Of a stretch of DNA of 64,000 nucleotides, positions 17,187 to 22,834 are shown one piece after another. The notes beneath the pieces were generated by a model. That model made no database searches and was not told the origin of the DNA. It worked only from the letters and a program-made list of their open reading frames with translations. The stretch comes from an uncultured Desulfobacter sp. (lineage in GTDB: Bacteria > Desulfobacterota > Desulfobacteria > Desulfobacterales > Desulfobacteraceae), in the NCBI RefSeq assembly GCF_963665355.1, contig NZ_OY762229.1:1798001-1862000 (forward strand). The letters are read 5' to 3'. The position numbers and the translations under genes were made by a program. Numbering within the stretch: position 1 is the first letter of the stretch; each line of letters opens with the position of its first letter.

Positions 17187-18605
17187 CTATTTGGTCTTAA
17201 ATTCAGCTTTATCCAGTCCCAGCTTTTTCATTTTGGCATACAGCCCCCTGGGGTGAATGCCTGCAATTTTTGCGGTTTCGCCAATTTTGCCGCCGGTTTT
17301 TTTCAGCACCATGGCCAGATACAAAGCCTCCACCTGGTCATACACGGCGTCCCGGACCTGGGGCAGGGTCATGGTTTCCCATTCCCGGGGCAGGCAAAGT
17401 TCTGACGCCCCGCAATTCATTCTGACAGGTGCGGCATTATGGAAAACCGAGGGCAGCTCTTCCAGGGTGATGATATCTGACTTGCACAGCAGGACAGCCC
17501 GTTCAATAACGTTCATCAGTTCCCGTATATTGCCCGGCCAGTGGTAGTTGGACAAAGCTTCCATGGCCGGCTGGGAAAAGCGTTTGAGATTTTTGCCGAA
17601 TTTCTGCTGGTTCATGGTCAGAAAATGGTTGGCCAGTGAGGGGATATCCTCTTTACGTCTCCTCAGGGGCGGAAGAGTTAGTGAAATCACCCCGAGACGG
17701 TAAAAAAGATCTTTTCGGAAATTACCCTTTTCAACCTCATCTTCAAGGTCCTTGTTGGTGGCTGCAATAACCCGGACATCCACCCACACTGATTTTTCAC
17801 CACCAACGGGCGTAAATTCGAGTTCCTGCAACACCCGGAGCAGCTTGGTCTGCATCTGCAACGGCATGTCACCGATCTCATCCAGAAAAATAGTGCCGCC
17901 ATGGGCCAGTTCAAAGGCCCCCCGCCGGGAACGCACCGCTCCGGTAAAAGCCCCTTGCTCGTGCCCGAAAAGCTCGCTTTCCATGAGCTGTTCCGGGATG
18001 GCTGCCATATTGATGGCAATGAAGGGGCCTGTGGCTCTGTGGCTGTCTGTATGAATGGCTTTGGACAGATGCTCCTTGCCCACGCCGGTCTCCCCAAGCA
18101 GCAGTATGGTGGCGTCGCTGGAGACCACCTGCCGGGTTTCATCCAGAAACACCTGCATATCCCGGCTGTTGGAGGTGAAATCGTTAAGCCGGGGTAAAAA
18201 ACGTCCCCGCCGGTCAAACCGTTCCGAATAATAGAATTGACGGCGTGATTCCAGCGTTGTCTCAAGAGCTTCAAAAAGACTGTCCATGGGAATGCCGGAG
18301 TAAAACACCACATCAACACCCGAGGCCAGAAGATTGGCATGCTCTTCCGACGACTCCCGATTATGCAGAACGATGGTCATGGGCGATTCCGGAAGATCGT
18401 TGAGCAGGGAAATACTGGATTCGACGGGTTTGGGAATTGTGGCGCTGCTGACAATAAATACGTCGGCACAGCTTCTGGCAAGGGCTTGCCAGGAAAGGGT
18501 GCTGGGTTTAAAAAATTGAAGCTGAACATCCTGTTCAGCCAGCCTGTTCTCAAGCTCAGTGCGTATTTTTGTCTCTTTAATGGCACATGCCAGTCGAATT
18601 AACAT
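17187..18605 (-). CDS. Sigma-54-dependent activator with degenerate receiver
   Basis: A 472-aa enhancer-binding protein. The N-terminal receiver-like domain has DVFIVSSATIP where receivers usually carry the phosphoacceptor Asp, so it probably cannot be phosphorylated in the normal way. The AAA+ core is intact: GETGVGKEH, GAFTGA sigma-54 loop and TIFLDEIGD. The C-terminal Fis-like helix-turn-helix (AKIAGIHPRGLYAKMKKLGL) closely parallels the activator at 9541-10962. The ATG at 18605 is chosen; the longer 18686 start adds an odd hydrophobic leader. It is divergent from a perfect -24/-12 promoter, strongly suggesting it controls the 18983-22834 operon. Confidence 0.88.
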   Translation of the reverse strand: MLIRLACAIKETKIRTELENRLAEQDVQLQFFKPSTLSWQALARSCADVFIVSSATIPKPVESSISLLNDLPESPMTIVLHNRESSEEHANLLASGVDVVFYSGIPMDSLFEALETTLESRRQFYYSERFDRRGRFLPRLNDFTSNSRDMQVFLDETRQVVSSDATILLLGETGVGKEHLSKAIHTDSHRATGPFIAINMAAIPEQLMESELFGHEQGAFTGAVRSRRGAFELAHGGTIFLDEIGDMPLQMQTKLLRVLQELEFTPVGGEKSVWVDVRVIAATNKDLEDEVEKGNFRKDLFYRLGVISLTLPPLRRRKEDIPSLANHFLTMNQQKFGKNLKRFSQPAMEALSNYHWPGNIRELMNVIERAVLLCKSDIITLEELPSVFHNAAPVRMNCGASELCLPREWETMTLPQVRDAVYDQVEALYLAMVLKKTGGKIGETAKIAGIHPRGLYAKMKKLGLDKAEFKTK

Positions 18606-18883: not shown

Positions 18884-18899
18884 TGGCACACAGGTTGCT
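18884..18899 (+). promoter_or_regulatory. Sigma-54 promoter of the peptide/GNAT/ATP-grasp operon
   Basis: TGGCACACAGGTTGCT fits TGGYAYRN4TTGCW at every position, with exact GG-N10-GC spacing. ACACAGGTTGCT is repeated in tandem at 18902-18913, across the expected start near 18910. The divergent sigma-54 activator starts about 280 bp upstream. Confidence 0.85.
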
Positions 18900-18982
18900 A
18901 TACACAGGTTGCTGAAATTAAAACCAACCAGCAGGCCCAGGCCCAAACAGCCAATCCAAAAACTAAAGAGGAAAAGGAAGTC

Positions 18983-19144
18983 ATGAGCAAGGAAAAGATC
19001 AGCCGGAACAAAGGCAAAAGTCCAAGATTCAAAGAGAGTTATGATGAGGATTATGACTGGGAAGATCAGAAGGAAGACCAGAAACGCCGCAAAAAAATGA
19101 ACAAGCAGCCCAAACGCCCGACTGACCCAAAAGACAAATGGTAG
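18983..19144 (+). CDS. Small highly charged protein, first gene of the sigma-54 operon
   Basis: A 53-aa reading frame starting with MSKEKISRNKGKS and ending PKDKW, behind a good AAAGGAAG ribosome site 73 bp after the predicted transcription start. It is dominated by Lys, Arg, Asp and Glu, including an acidic middle (YDEDYDWED) followed by a basic stretch (QKRRKKMNK). No signal peptide or known domain is seen. The position and ribosome site argue that it is translated. It could be an accessory or regulatory protein, or a disordered chaperone for the next peptide; this is a guess. Confidence 0.65.
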   Translation: MSKEKISRNKGKSPRFKESYDEDYDWEDQKEDQKRRKKMNKQPKRPTDPKDKW

Positions 19145-19173
19145 TCCGTGTCCTGAATTTAAAGGAGAAAAAC

Positions 19174-19308
19174 ATGAATTCTGAAAAGCCAACCCATATA
19201 AACACCAACACTTACCCATGGAGCAATGTCTGCGCCATCGACGTCTATGCCGTAGCTTATAAGGTCGTTCGGGGGCTTGCCCGGATCAACGTAACTTACC
19301 AACATTAG
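19174..19308 (+). CDS. 44-residue peptide, possible substrate of the downstream enzymes
   Basis: A 44-aa frame with a strong AAAGGAGAAA ribosome site, starting MNSEKPTHINTNTYPWSNVC and ending ARINVTYQH. It has one Cys, a Trp and several Tyr/Thr/Asn, and resembles no domain I know. The GNAT-like gene starts 10 bp later. A tiny peptide directly ahead of an ATP-grasp and transferase gene set recalls precursors of ribosomally made modified peptides, but no cleavage motif is evident and the role is inference. Confidence 0.65.
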   Translation: MNSEKPTHINTNTYPWSNVCAIDVYAVAYKVVRGLARINVTYQH

Positions 19309-19318
19309 GTGAATAAAG

Positions 19319-20281
19319 ATGAAATCCATTATAATTACAGATCCGGAAGGTTGCCGTCAGGCCTGGGAAAAATATTGGCCGGTCCAGGACATATTTGATA
19401 TTTGGTCTGTCAGGCAATGTTTCAATGCAGCATTTAACAGACCTTTAAGTTTCCACCTCATCGAAGACAAGGGCCAGGTTGTGGGGTTTCTTCCCCTGAG
19501 CCGGGTTGAAGAGACCGGCGAGTATGTGTTTTTTCCCGGAGAGACCTGGAAAGGCAAGACCTGGCTGGAGCAGAATCGGGTTTTTGCGCAATCCCCTGAA
19601 GTATTCCAGGCATTGTGCGATTCCGTGCCCGGACCACTGAATTTAAGATACCTGCGTTTCAATCCGTTGTTTGAAAAAATGGAGCAGGCGGGTCCTGACG
19701 AGACAGGCTATCTTTTTTACCCCCGGATGCATGACTTTTCCATGGAAAATTTCTGGCTGGCATTCCCAGGAAAAACCAGAAAAAAACTCAAGGCAGATGT
19801 TAAAAAAATTGAAGAGCGGGAGCTTGCCTGGCGATACAATCATATGCCCGATATCTCTGAAATGTTTCGTCTGAACATGGCTGCATTTACATCGGATTCC
19901 TACTTTAGCGATGCGCGGTTTTACCGCTCCTTTGAACGGTTTGCCGCATATCTGCAGGAAATGGGCATGCTCAGGGTTACCACAGCCATCGTGGAAGGAA
20001 AAATCGCGGCCGTGGATATGGGCGCCGTTTTCAACAACACCTACACGGTGGTGGCCGGGGGTACCCACCCGGATTTTGTGGGTATTGCCAAGGTGATCAA
20101 CCTGCATCACTTGGAATGGGCTTGTCACAACCGCTTGGAAGCCGTGGATTTTCTGTGCGGCAGTTTTAGCTGGAAGGAACGGTTTCGTTTAAGCCCCAGG
20201 CCATCATATGAGATTCACACCCAGCCCGATGCGGCTGTTTTCCAGGGGAGCCATTATGGGCGAAAAGCCGTCTGCGCTTAA
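19319..20281 (+). CDS. GNAT/FemAB-like (BioF2-type) acyltransferase
   Basis: A 320-aa protein resembling the FemAB/BioF2-like branch of the GNAT superfamily, whose members move acyl or aminoacyl groups, some from aminoacyl-tRNA. The fold is suggested by RKKLKADVKKIEERELAW in the middle and by the late IAAVDMGAVFNNTYTVVAGG and GIAKVINLHHLEWACH segments, which match the usual acyltransferase core. ATG 19319 follows TAGGTGA. It overlaps the ATP-grasp gene by 26 bp, so they are translationally coupled. Substrate unknown; in this context it may acylate the 44-residue peptide or a small amine. Confidence 0.75.
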   Translation: MKSIIITDPEGCRQAWEKYWPVQDIFDIWSVRQCFNAAFNRPLSFHLIEDKGQVVGFLPLSRVEETGEYVFFPGETWKGKTWLEQNRVFAQSPEVFQALCDSVPGPLNLRYLRFNPLFEKMEQAGPDETGYLFYPRMHDFSMENFWLAFPGKTRKKLKADVKKIEERELAWRYNHMPDISEMFRLNMAAFTSDSYFSDARFYRSFERFAAYLQEMGMLRVTTAIVEGKIAAVDMGAVFNNTYTVVAGGTHPDFVGIAKVINLHHLEWACHNRLEAVDFLCGSFSWKERFRLSPRPSYEIHTQPDAAVFQGSHYGRKAVCA

Positions 20282-21548
20282 AAAAAAACAGGTGCTGGTC
20301 GTGGGCACCACATCCGACTACATTGAATGGATCAGAAATATCCGTCCCGGACAGGCCCTTTTTCTGACGGAACCAAAGGTTCGTCAGGATGCCACTGAAC
20401 CCTGTCCGGAGGCCGGCGAGGAAATTTTATGCCCCATCTGCGATATTGACGGCGCAGTTTCGGCCTTGGAGCAACACAAAAAAGACTTCGGGGTTACCCT
20501 GTCGGGTATTGCCTGCTTTGATTGCGAGTCCATGGAGGCCGCATCCATCCTGGCAGAAAAGATGGGCCTTTCCTACCACGATCTTGAGACTGTCAGGAAC
20601 AGCAGGGATAAATTTATCTCAAAACAGTTATGGCGGAAATGTCAGATCCCTTGCCCCCAGACCTGTCCGGTCAATACCGAAATTGAGGTGCTGAACTTTT
20701 TGGATGAATTGCCGGCAGGCATTGTACTTAAACCCTTTTGCGGTTCCGGCAGCGAGCTTGTATTTAAATGCGTGACCCGAAAAGAGTGCGATGCCGCATT
20801 CAATGAGGTATCAGACGGACTTGCCGCCCGGACCGGAAATCCATTGTTTAAACCCACGGATGCCGGTACATTCCAGATGCTGGCCGAGGAGTGGGTGGCC
20901 GGACCTGAATTTTCCTGTGATTTTCTTATGGAAAAAGACCGGGCCGTGGTCCTGCGCAGAACCCGGAAAATAAAGGTGGACAGCAGACCATTCGGCACCA
21001 TTTCAGGTTATGCGATATGCCGGGAAAACGGTGATGACCACGGAATGCCTTCCAATGAAATACTCTCGGATATTTTTTACAGAGCAGCCGGGGCCCTGGG
21101 TATAAAAACAGGCGTCTGCATGGTGGATTTTATTTTAAGGAACAGAAAACCAGTACTCATAGAGATGACTCCCCGGCCCGGCGGAGACTGTCTGCCTTTT
21201 CTGCTGAAGGAAGCCGGAAACATCGACATACTTGGTTTGACCCTGGATGCGGCCCAGGGTGATCCCTGGAAAAATGAAAAAAAAGGGCCATACAAACCCC
21301 TGGTGGCATTCCGTATCCATGCCCGTAAAAATGGTGTATTGAAACGCATCAAAACCGCTGCTGTGGAAGATGATAAACGGGTAAAAAGTATTCACCTGAT
21401 CCGCACCCCGGGACACAAAGTGACCATGCCGCCTTTGGACTATGATTCGTGGCTGTTGGGTCACATGATTATTGAACCTCACAGGCACAAATTTTTCGAA
21501 ACCGAGTGTCTTTTGATCGCCAAACGTATCGACATTGAAATGGGTTAG
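20256..21548 (+). CDS. ATP-grasp ligase
   Basis: A 430-aa ATP-grasp enzyme, a family that joins a carboxylate to an amine or thiol through an acyl-phosphate. The N-terminal pre-ATP-grasp domain (VLVVGTTSDYIEWI) is followed by the ATP-binding core: SRDKFISKQLWRKCQIPCP, the Gly-rich region LKPFCGSGSELV, the EEWVAGPEFSCDF segment, and the metal-binding end with DFILRN and VLIEMTPRPGGD. It resembles peptide or carnosine-type ligases rather than purine enzymes. ATG 20256 is chosen for its GGGGAG site. It sits between the acyltransferase and the decarboxylase in one coupled operon. Confidence 0.87.
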   Translation: MGEKPSALKKKQVLVVGTTSDYIEWIRNIRPGQALFLTEPKVRQDATEPCPEAGEEILCPICDIDGAVSALEQHKKDFGVTLSGIACFDCESMEAASILAEKMGLSYHDLETVRNSRDKFISKQLWRKCQIPCPQTCPVNTEIEVLNFLDELPAGIVLKPFCGSGSELVFKCVTRKECDAAFNEVSDGLAARTGNPLFKPTDAGTFQMLAEEWVAGPEFSCDFLMEKDRAVVLRRTRKIKVDSRPFGTISGYAICRENGDDHGMPSNEILSDIFYRAAGALGIKTGVCMVDFILRNRKPVLIEMTPRPGGDCLPFLLKEAGNIDILGLTLDAAQGDPWKNEKKGPYKPLVAFRIHARKNGVLKRIKTAAVEDDKRVKSIHLIRTPGHKVTMPPLDYDSWLLGHMIIEPHRHKFFETECLLIAKRIDIEMG

Positions 21549-21550
21549 GC

Positions 21551-22834
21551 ATGCTCGCAGCCAATAATGCACAGATGACAGACACAAGCTCCCTTTTGCC
21601 CCGGGAAAAAGTAATTGAATTCATAACTCCCTACTTAAAAAACAAGGGGGTGTACCTGGATATCGCCAGGGCCTTCGGATCACCCCTGTATGTTCTGGAA
21701 ACCGATGTCCTGGCAAGAAAAGCAGACCAGTTCAGGGCGGCATTCAGCCACAGACTGCCGGACACCTCTTTTTTTTACGCCATGAAGAGCAACAATCTGC
21801 CCCATCTTTGCGGACATCTGCTCAAACACGGATTCGGGCTGGATGTATCCAGCGGAGTGGAATTGTCCGTGGCCCTGGATCTGGGCGCGTCATCCATTAT
21901 TTTCAGCGGTCCGGGCAAAACCATCCAGGAGTTGGAACTTGCGGCCCGGTACCCGGACCGGGTGGTGATTCTCCTGGACAGTATCGGTGAAGCCCGGCGG
22001 CTGGCCTCGGTGCTTGAAGAAAAGAATGTCCGCATGCCCGTAGGATTGCGGCTGAACAACAATCCCGAAGGCCTGTGGCGCAAATTCGGGGTATTGCCGG
22101 AAAATTTGCTGTCTGCGTTTAAAGAGATCCAGTCCCTTGGCCGGCTGAATTTTCAGGGACTGCAGTTTCACTCCTCCTGGAATCTTAACCCGGACAGGCA
22201 GACCGCGTTTATTAAAAAACTGGGTCAAATCCTTTCCTCCATGCCTAAAGATTTCCTGGATGCGGTGAAATTTATTGATATTGGCGGCGGCTACTGGCCT
22301 GCCCAGGGGGAGTGGCTTTTGTCGGATGCGCCCCAGGACTATATCATTGATCCCGGGGTCTCCATTGATTTGTTCGCAAAACAATTGTCAGGAGCCATTA
22401 AAGAGCACATTCTGCCCTTGGCCCCGTGCCGGATCTGTTTTGAACCGGGCCGCTGGATCTGCAATGATGCCATGCACATTCTCATCCAGGTGGTGGACTG
22501 CAAAGAGACAGATCTGGTCATCACCGATGCCGGCGGCAATATGGTGGGATGGGAACGGTATGAAACCGATTACTGTCCGGTGATTAATTTGACCCGGCCC
22601 GGCCTTTGTGAAAAAAGATGCCATATTCTGGGCTCTTTGTGCACACCCCATGATGTCTGGGGATATGCCTATTTCGGTTCGGCCATCAGGGAAAATGACA
22701 TCCTCATGATTCCGGCCCAGGGTGCATATACTTACAGTCTGCGCCAGCAATTCATCAAGCCCGTTCCCCGGGTGGCAGTCAAGGACGGCGGACGGTATTT
22801 TCTTCTTCCCCAGTGCGTTGCACCAGGCGAGTAA
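21551..22834 (+). CDS. Fold-type III PLP-dependent decarboxylase (DAP/ornithine/arginine type)
   Basis: A 427-aa alanine-racemase-fold decarboxylase. The PLP lysine lies in YAMKSNNLPHL, followed by GLDVSSGVEL, the phosphate-binding IDIGGGYWP near residue 240, EPGRWI, and the active-site Cys motif CTPHDVWG from the partner subunit. Such enzymes decarboxylate diaminopimelate, ornithine or arginine, or relatives such as carboxynorspermidine. It begins 2 bp after the ATP-grasp stop, so it belongs to the same operon and probably supplies an amine for ligation. A lysine-biosynthetic LysA role is unlikely in this setting. Confidence 0.85.
   Translation: MLAANNAQMTDTSSLLPREKVIEFITPYLKNKGVYLDIARAFGSPLYVLETDVLARKADQFRAAFSHRLPDTSFFYAMKSNNLPHLCGHLLKHGFGLDVSSGVELSVALDLGASSIIFSGPGKTIQELELAARYPDRVVILLDSIGEARRLASVLEEKNVRMPVGLRLNNNPEGLWRKFGVLPENLLSAFKEIQSLGRLNFQGLQFHSSWNLNPDRQTAFIKKLGQILSSMPKDFLDAVKFIDIGGGYWPAQGEWLLSDAPQDYIIDPGVSIDLFAKQLSGAIKEHILPLAPCRICFEPGRWICNDAMHILIQVVDCKETDLVITDAGGNMVGWERYETDYCPVINLTRPGLCEKRCHILGSLCTPHDVWGYAYFGSAIRENDILMIPAQGAYTYSLRQQFIKPVPRVAVKDGGRYFLLPQCVAPGE

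Follow-up and report, generated by a model that had tools for sequence, protein, structure and literature searches.

The locus described here raises the question of whether a 44-codon open reading frame near the head of an enzyme operon is a peptide precursor, a functional leader or the residue of a gene, and of what the operon makes. It lies in a 64,000-nucleotide stretch (the window) of the genome of an uncultured Desulfobacter sp. (contig NZ_OY762229.1, positions 1,798,001 to 1,862,000; G000:C2:1798001-1862000, with G000 denoting the window's own genome), where a sigma-54 promoter precedes frames of 53 and 44 codons and genes for a FemX-like transferase, an ATP-grasp ligase and a pyridoxal phosphate (PLP) decarboxylase (Table 1). 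An initial annotation, made from the sequence letters, had proposed that the 44-residue product is a modified-peptide precursor or that the cassette makes a small amine conjugate. We find that the frame is the relic of a gene for a SpeD-family protein, and we somewhat favour the view that the cassette, under sigma-54 control, makes a conjugate derived from putrescine.

The 44-codon frame is a gene remnant

We sought the cassette decarboxylase in 59 genomes, the window's own included, of which 26 had a match with an E-value of 1e-40 or lower, and compared the 25 other loci over as much as 16 kb (four stretches were shorter). In the gap that separates the 53-codon frame from the transferase gene, 17 of the 26 genomes have a SpeD-family protein of 128–135 residues and seven (the window, G005, G006, G015, G016, G033 and G035) have a short frame of 29–61 residues; the SpeD of G025 is broken and G045 has none. 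The count of 29 residues for G033 starts at an inner methionine and covers the last part of a longer frame. In a DNA alignment of seven genomes, the window's frame is seen to consist of the first and last parts of a 129-codon gene, the middle of which has been deleted in frame; the processing serine and the catalytic centre went with it. What had been taken for a mini-protein is, by alignment with intact SpeD, left over from the gene for the probable amine-making enzyme of the set. Because G015 retains a different part of the gene from that kept by the window, G005, G006 and G016, at least two deletions must have occurred within the genus. G015 groups in the tree with G004, which has an intact gene (support 0.996), and G033 and G035 are placed elsewhere than the genus genomes with short frames. 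At one locus (L050, in G025) the whole cassette is decaying, with SpeD broken, the transferase in pieces, the ligase gone and the decarboxylase shortened.

The stop codon of the frame overlaps AGGTG, likely the Shine–Dalgarno sequence of the transferase gene, in the window and at 9 of 11 other loci inspected, and this overlap may be the reason why open frames survive. A function for the short frame in its own right, whether in translational coupling as a leader or as a small peptide that has outlived the enzyme, is favoured by the same overlap and by the start and stop codons of the intact gene, which are kept in the window, G005, G006, G015 and G016. The remnants of G016 and G006, however, differ by 2 synonymous and 5 nonsynonymous changes (dN/dS 0.6, with sites too few for a selection test), and we regard such a function as rather unlikely. 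A precursor of a ribosomally synthesized and post-translationally modified peptide (RiPP), modified by the cassette enzymes, is highly improbable and was rejected: the frame is open, lies in an operon with a Shine–Dalgarno-like sequence and has short counterparts at the same place in six other relatives, but the full enzyme of 128–135 aa occupies that place in 17 of the 26 genomes with its processing-site region invariant, the seven short frames differ in what they retain of it, and the G016 and G006 remnants differ at 5 of 38 residues whereas 8 nonsynonymous changes in 318 codons separate their transferases. The initial annotation had itself held that related clusters lacking the small frame would speak against a precursor, and the 44-residue frame is not conserved across relatives. 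That an in-frame gene relic can look just like a peptide precursor is a caution for the mining of small open reading frames and RiPPs.

Identity of the intact enzyme

The intact cassette SpeD matches AdoMet_dc (PF02675, E 2e-23), and its AlphaFold model (pLDDT 89.7) matches the S-adenosylmethionine decarboxylase (AdoMetDC) of T. maritima (Foldseek E 7e-9; 1tmi, TM 0.78/0.85). AdoMetDC structures were not found by sequence with the cassette SpeD profile; the structure search did match them. For Desulfotignum phosphitoxidans, Li et al. (2023, PMC10407285) describe a SpeD–SpeDC fusion of 278 aa in which the second domain is an ornithine decarboxylase and Ser79 and Ser229 are the processing sites. 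The Desulfotignum fusion that we compared (G030) is also 278 aa long and has serines at the same two positions. When six cassette SpeD proteins were compared with it, identity was 58–63% to its SpeDC domain and 20–22% to its AdoMetDC domain, and a tree places the cassette proteins among the fusions' second domains, apart from AdoMet decarboxylases. The processing-site motif IETS is invariant in 26 of 26 aligned cassette SpeD sequences, its serine being equivalent to Ser229 of the fusion, and the mean column identity of SpeD is 72% (26 sequences), compared with 52% for the decarboxylase, 48% for the transferase and 41% for the ligase.

Because of the fold, the processing serine and the 58–63% identity to the ornithine decarboxylase domain, we read the intact cassette SpeD as most likely a pyruvoyl ornithine decarboxylase (SpeDC). 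These are the features that it shares with the D. phosphitoxidans enzyme (the identity being to the second domain of the equal-length Desulfotignum fusion); it differs in being a stand-alone protein that lies behind a sigma-54 site in the company of three enzymes that are not named as part of polyamine synthesis, and the window holds only its remnant. The window's genome also carries a SpeD–SpeDC fusion elsewhere (G000:C2:4277402-4278223, L054). The SpeDC half of the fusion is without the processing serine in G001, G002, G004, G006, G009, G015 and G016, and in the G005 fusion a histidine is changed to tyrosine. A second SpeDC-like protein is encoded on the minus strand about 4 kb from the cassette at two loci (L095:3628-3966 and L096:5330-5668).

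Distribution and sigma-54 control of the module

In the 26 genomes, the transferase gene always adjoins the decarboxylase gene (in pieces in G025) and the ligase gene is present in 25, being missing in G025. To look further afield we used the SpeD alignment to search GTDB release 220 (one genome per species) and examined the best 80 of 220 relatives. These 80 come from Desulfobacterota and from metagenome-assembled genomes (MAGs) titled Planctomycetota, Krumholzibacteriota, Omnitrophota, Sumerlaeota, Hydrogenedentota, Nitrospiraceae, Armatimonadetes and Eisenbacteria. Across these phyla, 78 of the 80 loci have at least the transferase beside SpeD, and the transferase, ligase and decarboxylase are all present at 63 of the 69 loci whose downstream sequence extends for at least 4 kb. 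No description of the gene set (SpeDC, FemX-like transferase, ATP-grasp ligase and decarboxylase) was found by full-text searches of the open-access literature, subscription papers being outside their scope, which agrees with the earlier remark that no described pathway has this set. The ligase and decarboxylase form a single frame at L098:11864-14458 and L111:7212-9980, both in one Desulfamplus MAG (nTSbin20), and these fusions suggest that the two enzymes catalyse consecutive steps.

The promoter recurs as well. A −24/−12 site of at least 9/11 is found in 55 of 57 activator–SpeD intergenic regions of relatives (those among the 80 loci that have a divergent activator 100–2500 bases away) compared with about 1.3 expected in shuffles that preserve base composition only, and the site is therefore there more often than by chance. 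A divergent activator is present at 53 of the 69 SpeD loci with at least 2.6 kb upstream.

Probable replacement by a PLP ornithine decarboxylase

A candidate second source of putrescine is found in genomes in which speDC has been shortened. Among the loci listed by a PF02784 search of 14 genus genomes, the five genomes with shortened speDC have a PLP decarboxylase with the motif CDSAD, the closest solved relatives of which are lysine/ornithine decarboxylases. In the 59 genomes searched, every one of the seven with a short speDC has this PLP ornithine decarboxylase (at least 79% identity), as does 1 of the 17 in which speDC is intact (Fisher's exact test, p = 2e-5, phylogeny not corrected for); G025, with its broken cassette, and G045, without SpeD, were left out, the latter having a 31% relative. 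We then took a class-wide sample of 194 genomes at least 90% complete, which overlaps the first set and in which 47 have the cassette decarboxylase. With G025 left out, and with G140 and G209 (in which SpeD is on a different contig from the decarboxylase) counted as intact, a close PLP ornithine decarboxylase (at least 78%) occurs in 0 of 33 genomes with intact SpeDC and in 8 of 13 lacking it (p = 5e-6). The loss of speDC together with the presence of the PLP enzyme has the look of a non-orthologous replacement. In 1.5-kb flanks, the setting of the PLP gene is common only to the pairs G000/G005 and G006/G016; outside these pairs the flanks share a single 32-residue match, between G005 and G007. 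The initial annotation had the cassette decarboxylase make the amine; in relatives the probable amine-making gene of the set is speDC, and the window's genome has its PLP ornithine decarboxylase at another place.

In two pairs of genomes, both without intact speDC, dN/dS is 0.04–0.19 for the three enzymes and 0.035–0.06 for the activator. Because of these low values, the pathway appears to have been kept after the loss of speDC, provided that the gene was lost before the two members of each pair diverged.

Some candidate enzymes were set aside. The top PF02784 matches of G008, G011 and G014 were rejected as ornithine decarboxylases for their CETGD motif, that of G011 (the only one scored) being above the lysA cut-off. 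The strong matches of G104, G141 and G136 were not counted, as they have CES[GS]D as in diaminopimelate (DAP) decarboxylases. For an OKR-type decarboxylase as the source of putrescine, 14 genomes gave a single weak match.

Several observations weigh against a remnant-and-replacement history tied to this pathway. The G033 remnant is recognizable by a few residues only, and G007, a MAG with 7% contamination, has the PLP enzyme beside an intact speDC, as the only one of the 17. In the class-wide sample, 5 of the 13 genomes lacking SpeDC have no close PLP ornithine decarboxylase; three of them, G104, G113 and G141 (L210, L211 and L212), have the three-enzyme core and the activator, with no SpeD and no ornithine decarboxylase match at E 1e-25, and G182, also lacking SpeDC, has a 33% relative. 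Apart from the first test set and G045 there are five SpeDC-lacking genomes, of which only G091 adds a close ornithine decarboxylase, and its cassette is also without the transferase. Four genomes (G011, G059, G070 and G143) combine an intact speDC with a 29–32% relative of the PLP enzyme, and G011, G017 and G018 combine it with a PF02784 frame of 640–653 aa, which is also present in the short-speDC genome G033 and could, at a guess from its size, be an arginine decarboxylase. The idea that the cassette speDC and the fusion's SpeDC domain are lost reciprocally failed, as G006, G015 and G016 have lost both the cassette copy and the processing serine of the fusion. The replacement rule is incomplete outside the family, and speDC may serve a general supply of putrescine rather than the cassette pathway alone.

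Taken to its end, this would make speDC a mere general source of putrescine in the operon, with the other three genes making a product without it. The three-enzyme core without speDC in G045 (L046), G104, G113, G141 and G182 speaks for this, but the constancy across phyla with which SpeD is accompanied by at least the transferase speaks against it, and we consider it unlikely.

Relationships of the three enzymes

Pfam searches bear out the transferase, ATP-grasp and PLP decarboxylase families named initially (Table 1). The cassette decarboxylase is closest among solved sequences to FigC (139 bits), the N-citrylornithine decarboxylase of rhizoferrin synthesis, followed by a DAP decarboxylase (DAPDC; 126) and BtrK (124), with chains of the ornithine decarboxylase type scoring at most 91. 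Its motif is CTPHD, compared with CTPED in BtrK, CMQHD in FigC and CDSAD in the PLP ornithine decarboxylase of the window's genome. According to PMC7857480, FigC (FigC/FslC), SbnH, AcsE, MccE and BtrK form a clade with DAPDC outside polyamine synthesis, and several of these enzymes decarboxylate conjugated amino acids.

The ligase is closest to 4dim and to the L-amino acid ligases BL00235 (profile E 2e-28) and BacD (2e-14); it shares profile matches with the latter two and differs in forming a subfamily of its own, marked by a conserved PRPGGDCLP stretch. For the transferase model (pLDDT 90.7), the best Foldseek matches are Sbb17 and Sba18, then FemX and MprF. The transferase has the same double-GNAT fold as FemX and Sbb17/Sba18, which are aminoacyl-tRNA-dependent peptide synthases (top entries at Foldseek E 4e-12 to 1e-11), but is only 11–18% identical to them. 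Amide formation by an ATP-grasp enzyme without a nonribosomal peptide synthetase (NRPS), and the use of an amine, are shared with the E-64 pathway (PMC12568646); that pathway is fungal, however, its second amide is made by an amide bond synthetase, and its abstract names no FemX-like or SpeD enzyme.

These relationships also bear on whether the operon belongs to an amine-bearing siderophore or cell-surface modification pathway, rhizoferrin-like or XrtA/PEP-CTERM-like. FigC as the best solved match of the decarboxylase, and weak matches of the transferase and decarboxylase to XrtA-associated NCBIfam models, point in this direction. Membership in either group was nevertheless rejected, as the scores fall far under the curated cut-offs (rhizoferrin FslC, NF041039, 94 versus 500 bits; dCO2ase_PEP1, TIGR03099, 109 versus 478; femAB, TIGR03019, 26 versus 260), and no further protein is common to more than 13 of 81 loci at the clustering used (neighbours were not annotated and a siderophore synthetase was not searched for). 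We judge such a pathway improbable, and prefer a putrescine conjugate as the product.

Proposed pathway

From the computed gene families, conservation, promoter, remnant and, within the family, link between speDC loss and the PLP ornithine decarboxylase, we propose a four-step route, the steps of which (putrescine formation, ligation, decarboxylation and aminoacylation) we infer from the enzyme relationships and the ligase–decarboxylase fusion. In the ancestral form, a self-processing pyruvoyl SpeDC would decarboxylate L-ornithine to putrescine. The ATP-grasp enzyme would then join the carboxyl group of an amino acid, perhaps the gamma-carboxyl of glutamate, to the amine as an amide; the FigC/BtrK-like PLP decarboxylase would take the alpha-carboxyl off the conjugated amino acid; and the FemX-like transferase would add an aminoacyl group, probably from aminoacyl-tRNA. 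The predicted product is an aminoacylated putrescine conjugate, with the substrates and the order of the second to fourth steps similarly putative. The initial annotation's idea of a sigma-54-driven set of transferase, ligase and decarboxylase that makes a small amine conjugate is plausible and in this part supported. In the window's genome, the first step would have passed to the PLP ornithine decarboxylase elsewhere on the chromosome while speDC shrank to 44 codons, a frame perhaps held open by the overlap of its stop codon with the Shine–Dalgarno sequence of the transferase gene.

The fuller proposal, that a compact operon spread over many bacterial phyla makes a hitherto undescribed, sigma-54-induced small molecule, an aminoacyl (pseudo)peptide of putrescine, without an NRPS or a ribosome, and that the Desulfobacter family has repeatedly swapped a pyruvoyl for a PLP ornithine decarboxylase with in-frame relics left behind, is put forward tentatively, as an idea about which we have slightly more doubt than confidence. 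If true, it would describe a widespread route of putrescine conjugation that joins tRNA-dependent and ATP-grasp peptide chemistry, would assign stand-alone SpeDC enzymes to a biosynthetic pathway other than spermidine synthesis, and would provide a natural experiment in which a pyruvoyl enzyme has been replaced by a PLP enzyme with the relics still in place.

Layout of the cassette in the window

Much of the layout first described for the cassette stands. The promoter (named from the −24/−12 consensus) and the divergent sigma-54 activator are where they had been placed, and similar sites precede SpeD in relatives as given above. The three enzyme genes overlap or almost touch, the ligase gene overlapping that of the transferase. 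The count of five genes holds for the open frames and the three enzyme families, and fails for the 44-codon frame as a gene of its own. The activator, a bacterial enhancer-binding protein (bEBP), is the dedicated activator of the cassette; a Pfam search found no receiver domain (Response_reg) in its first ~140 residues.

Table 1. Features of the cassette, in window coordinates
Feature	Position	Strand	Basis
Divergent sigma-54 activator (bEBP)	17187..18605	-	PF00158 (Sigma54_activat), E 7e-70
Sigma-54 -24/-12 promoter TGGCACACAGGTTGCT	18884..18899	+	TGGCAC-N5-TTGCT read from sequence
Charged mini-protein, 53 residues	18983..19144	+	53 codons; kept in relatives
speDC remnant, 44 codons	19174..19308	+	Central in-frame deletion by alignment with relatives
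FemX-like transferase, double GNAT	19319..20281	+	320 codons; PF13480, E 4e-16
ATP-grasp ligase, L-amino-acid-ligase relative (BL00235, BacD)	20256..21548	+	430 codons; PF13535, E 5e-10
PLP decarboxylase (Orn/DAP/Arg type), CTPHD motif	21551..22834	+	427 codons; PF02784, E 9e-20

At four loci a TetR-like regulator, named from its sequence, lies directly before SpeD (L107:2547-3209, L114:1870-2532, L115:9222-9878 and L138:9268-9942), and a divergent sigma-54 activator was not found at these four. The 53-residue charged protein has no Pfam match above the cut-off; homologues of its frame occur at 18 of the 25 other cassette loci. Distant loci too (L097 and L127) have small proteins with many acidic and basic residues between the promoter and SpeD. 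At L051:3320-3541 SpeD is preceded by a small treble-clef zinc protein (PF13451, E 5e-13), which is unlike the charged protein of Desulfobacter.

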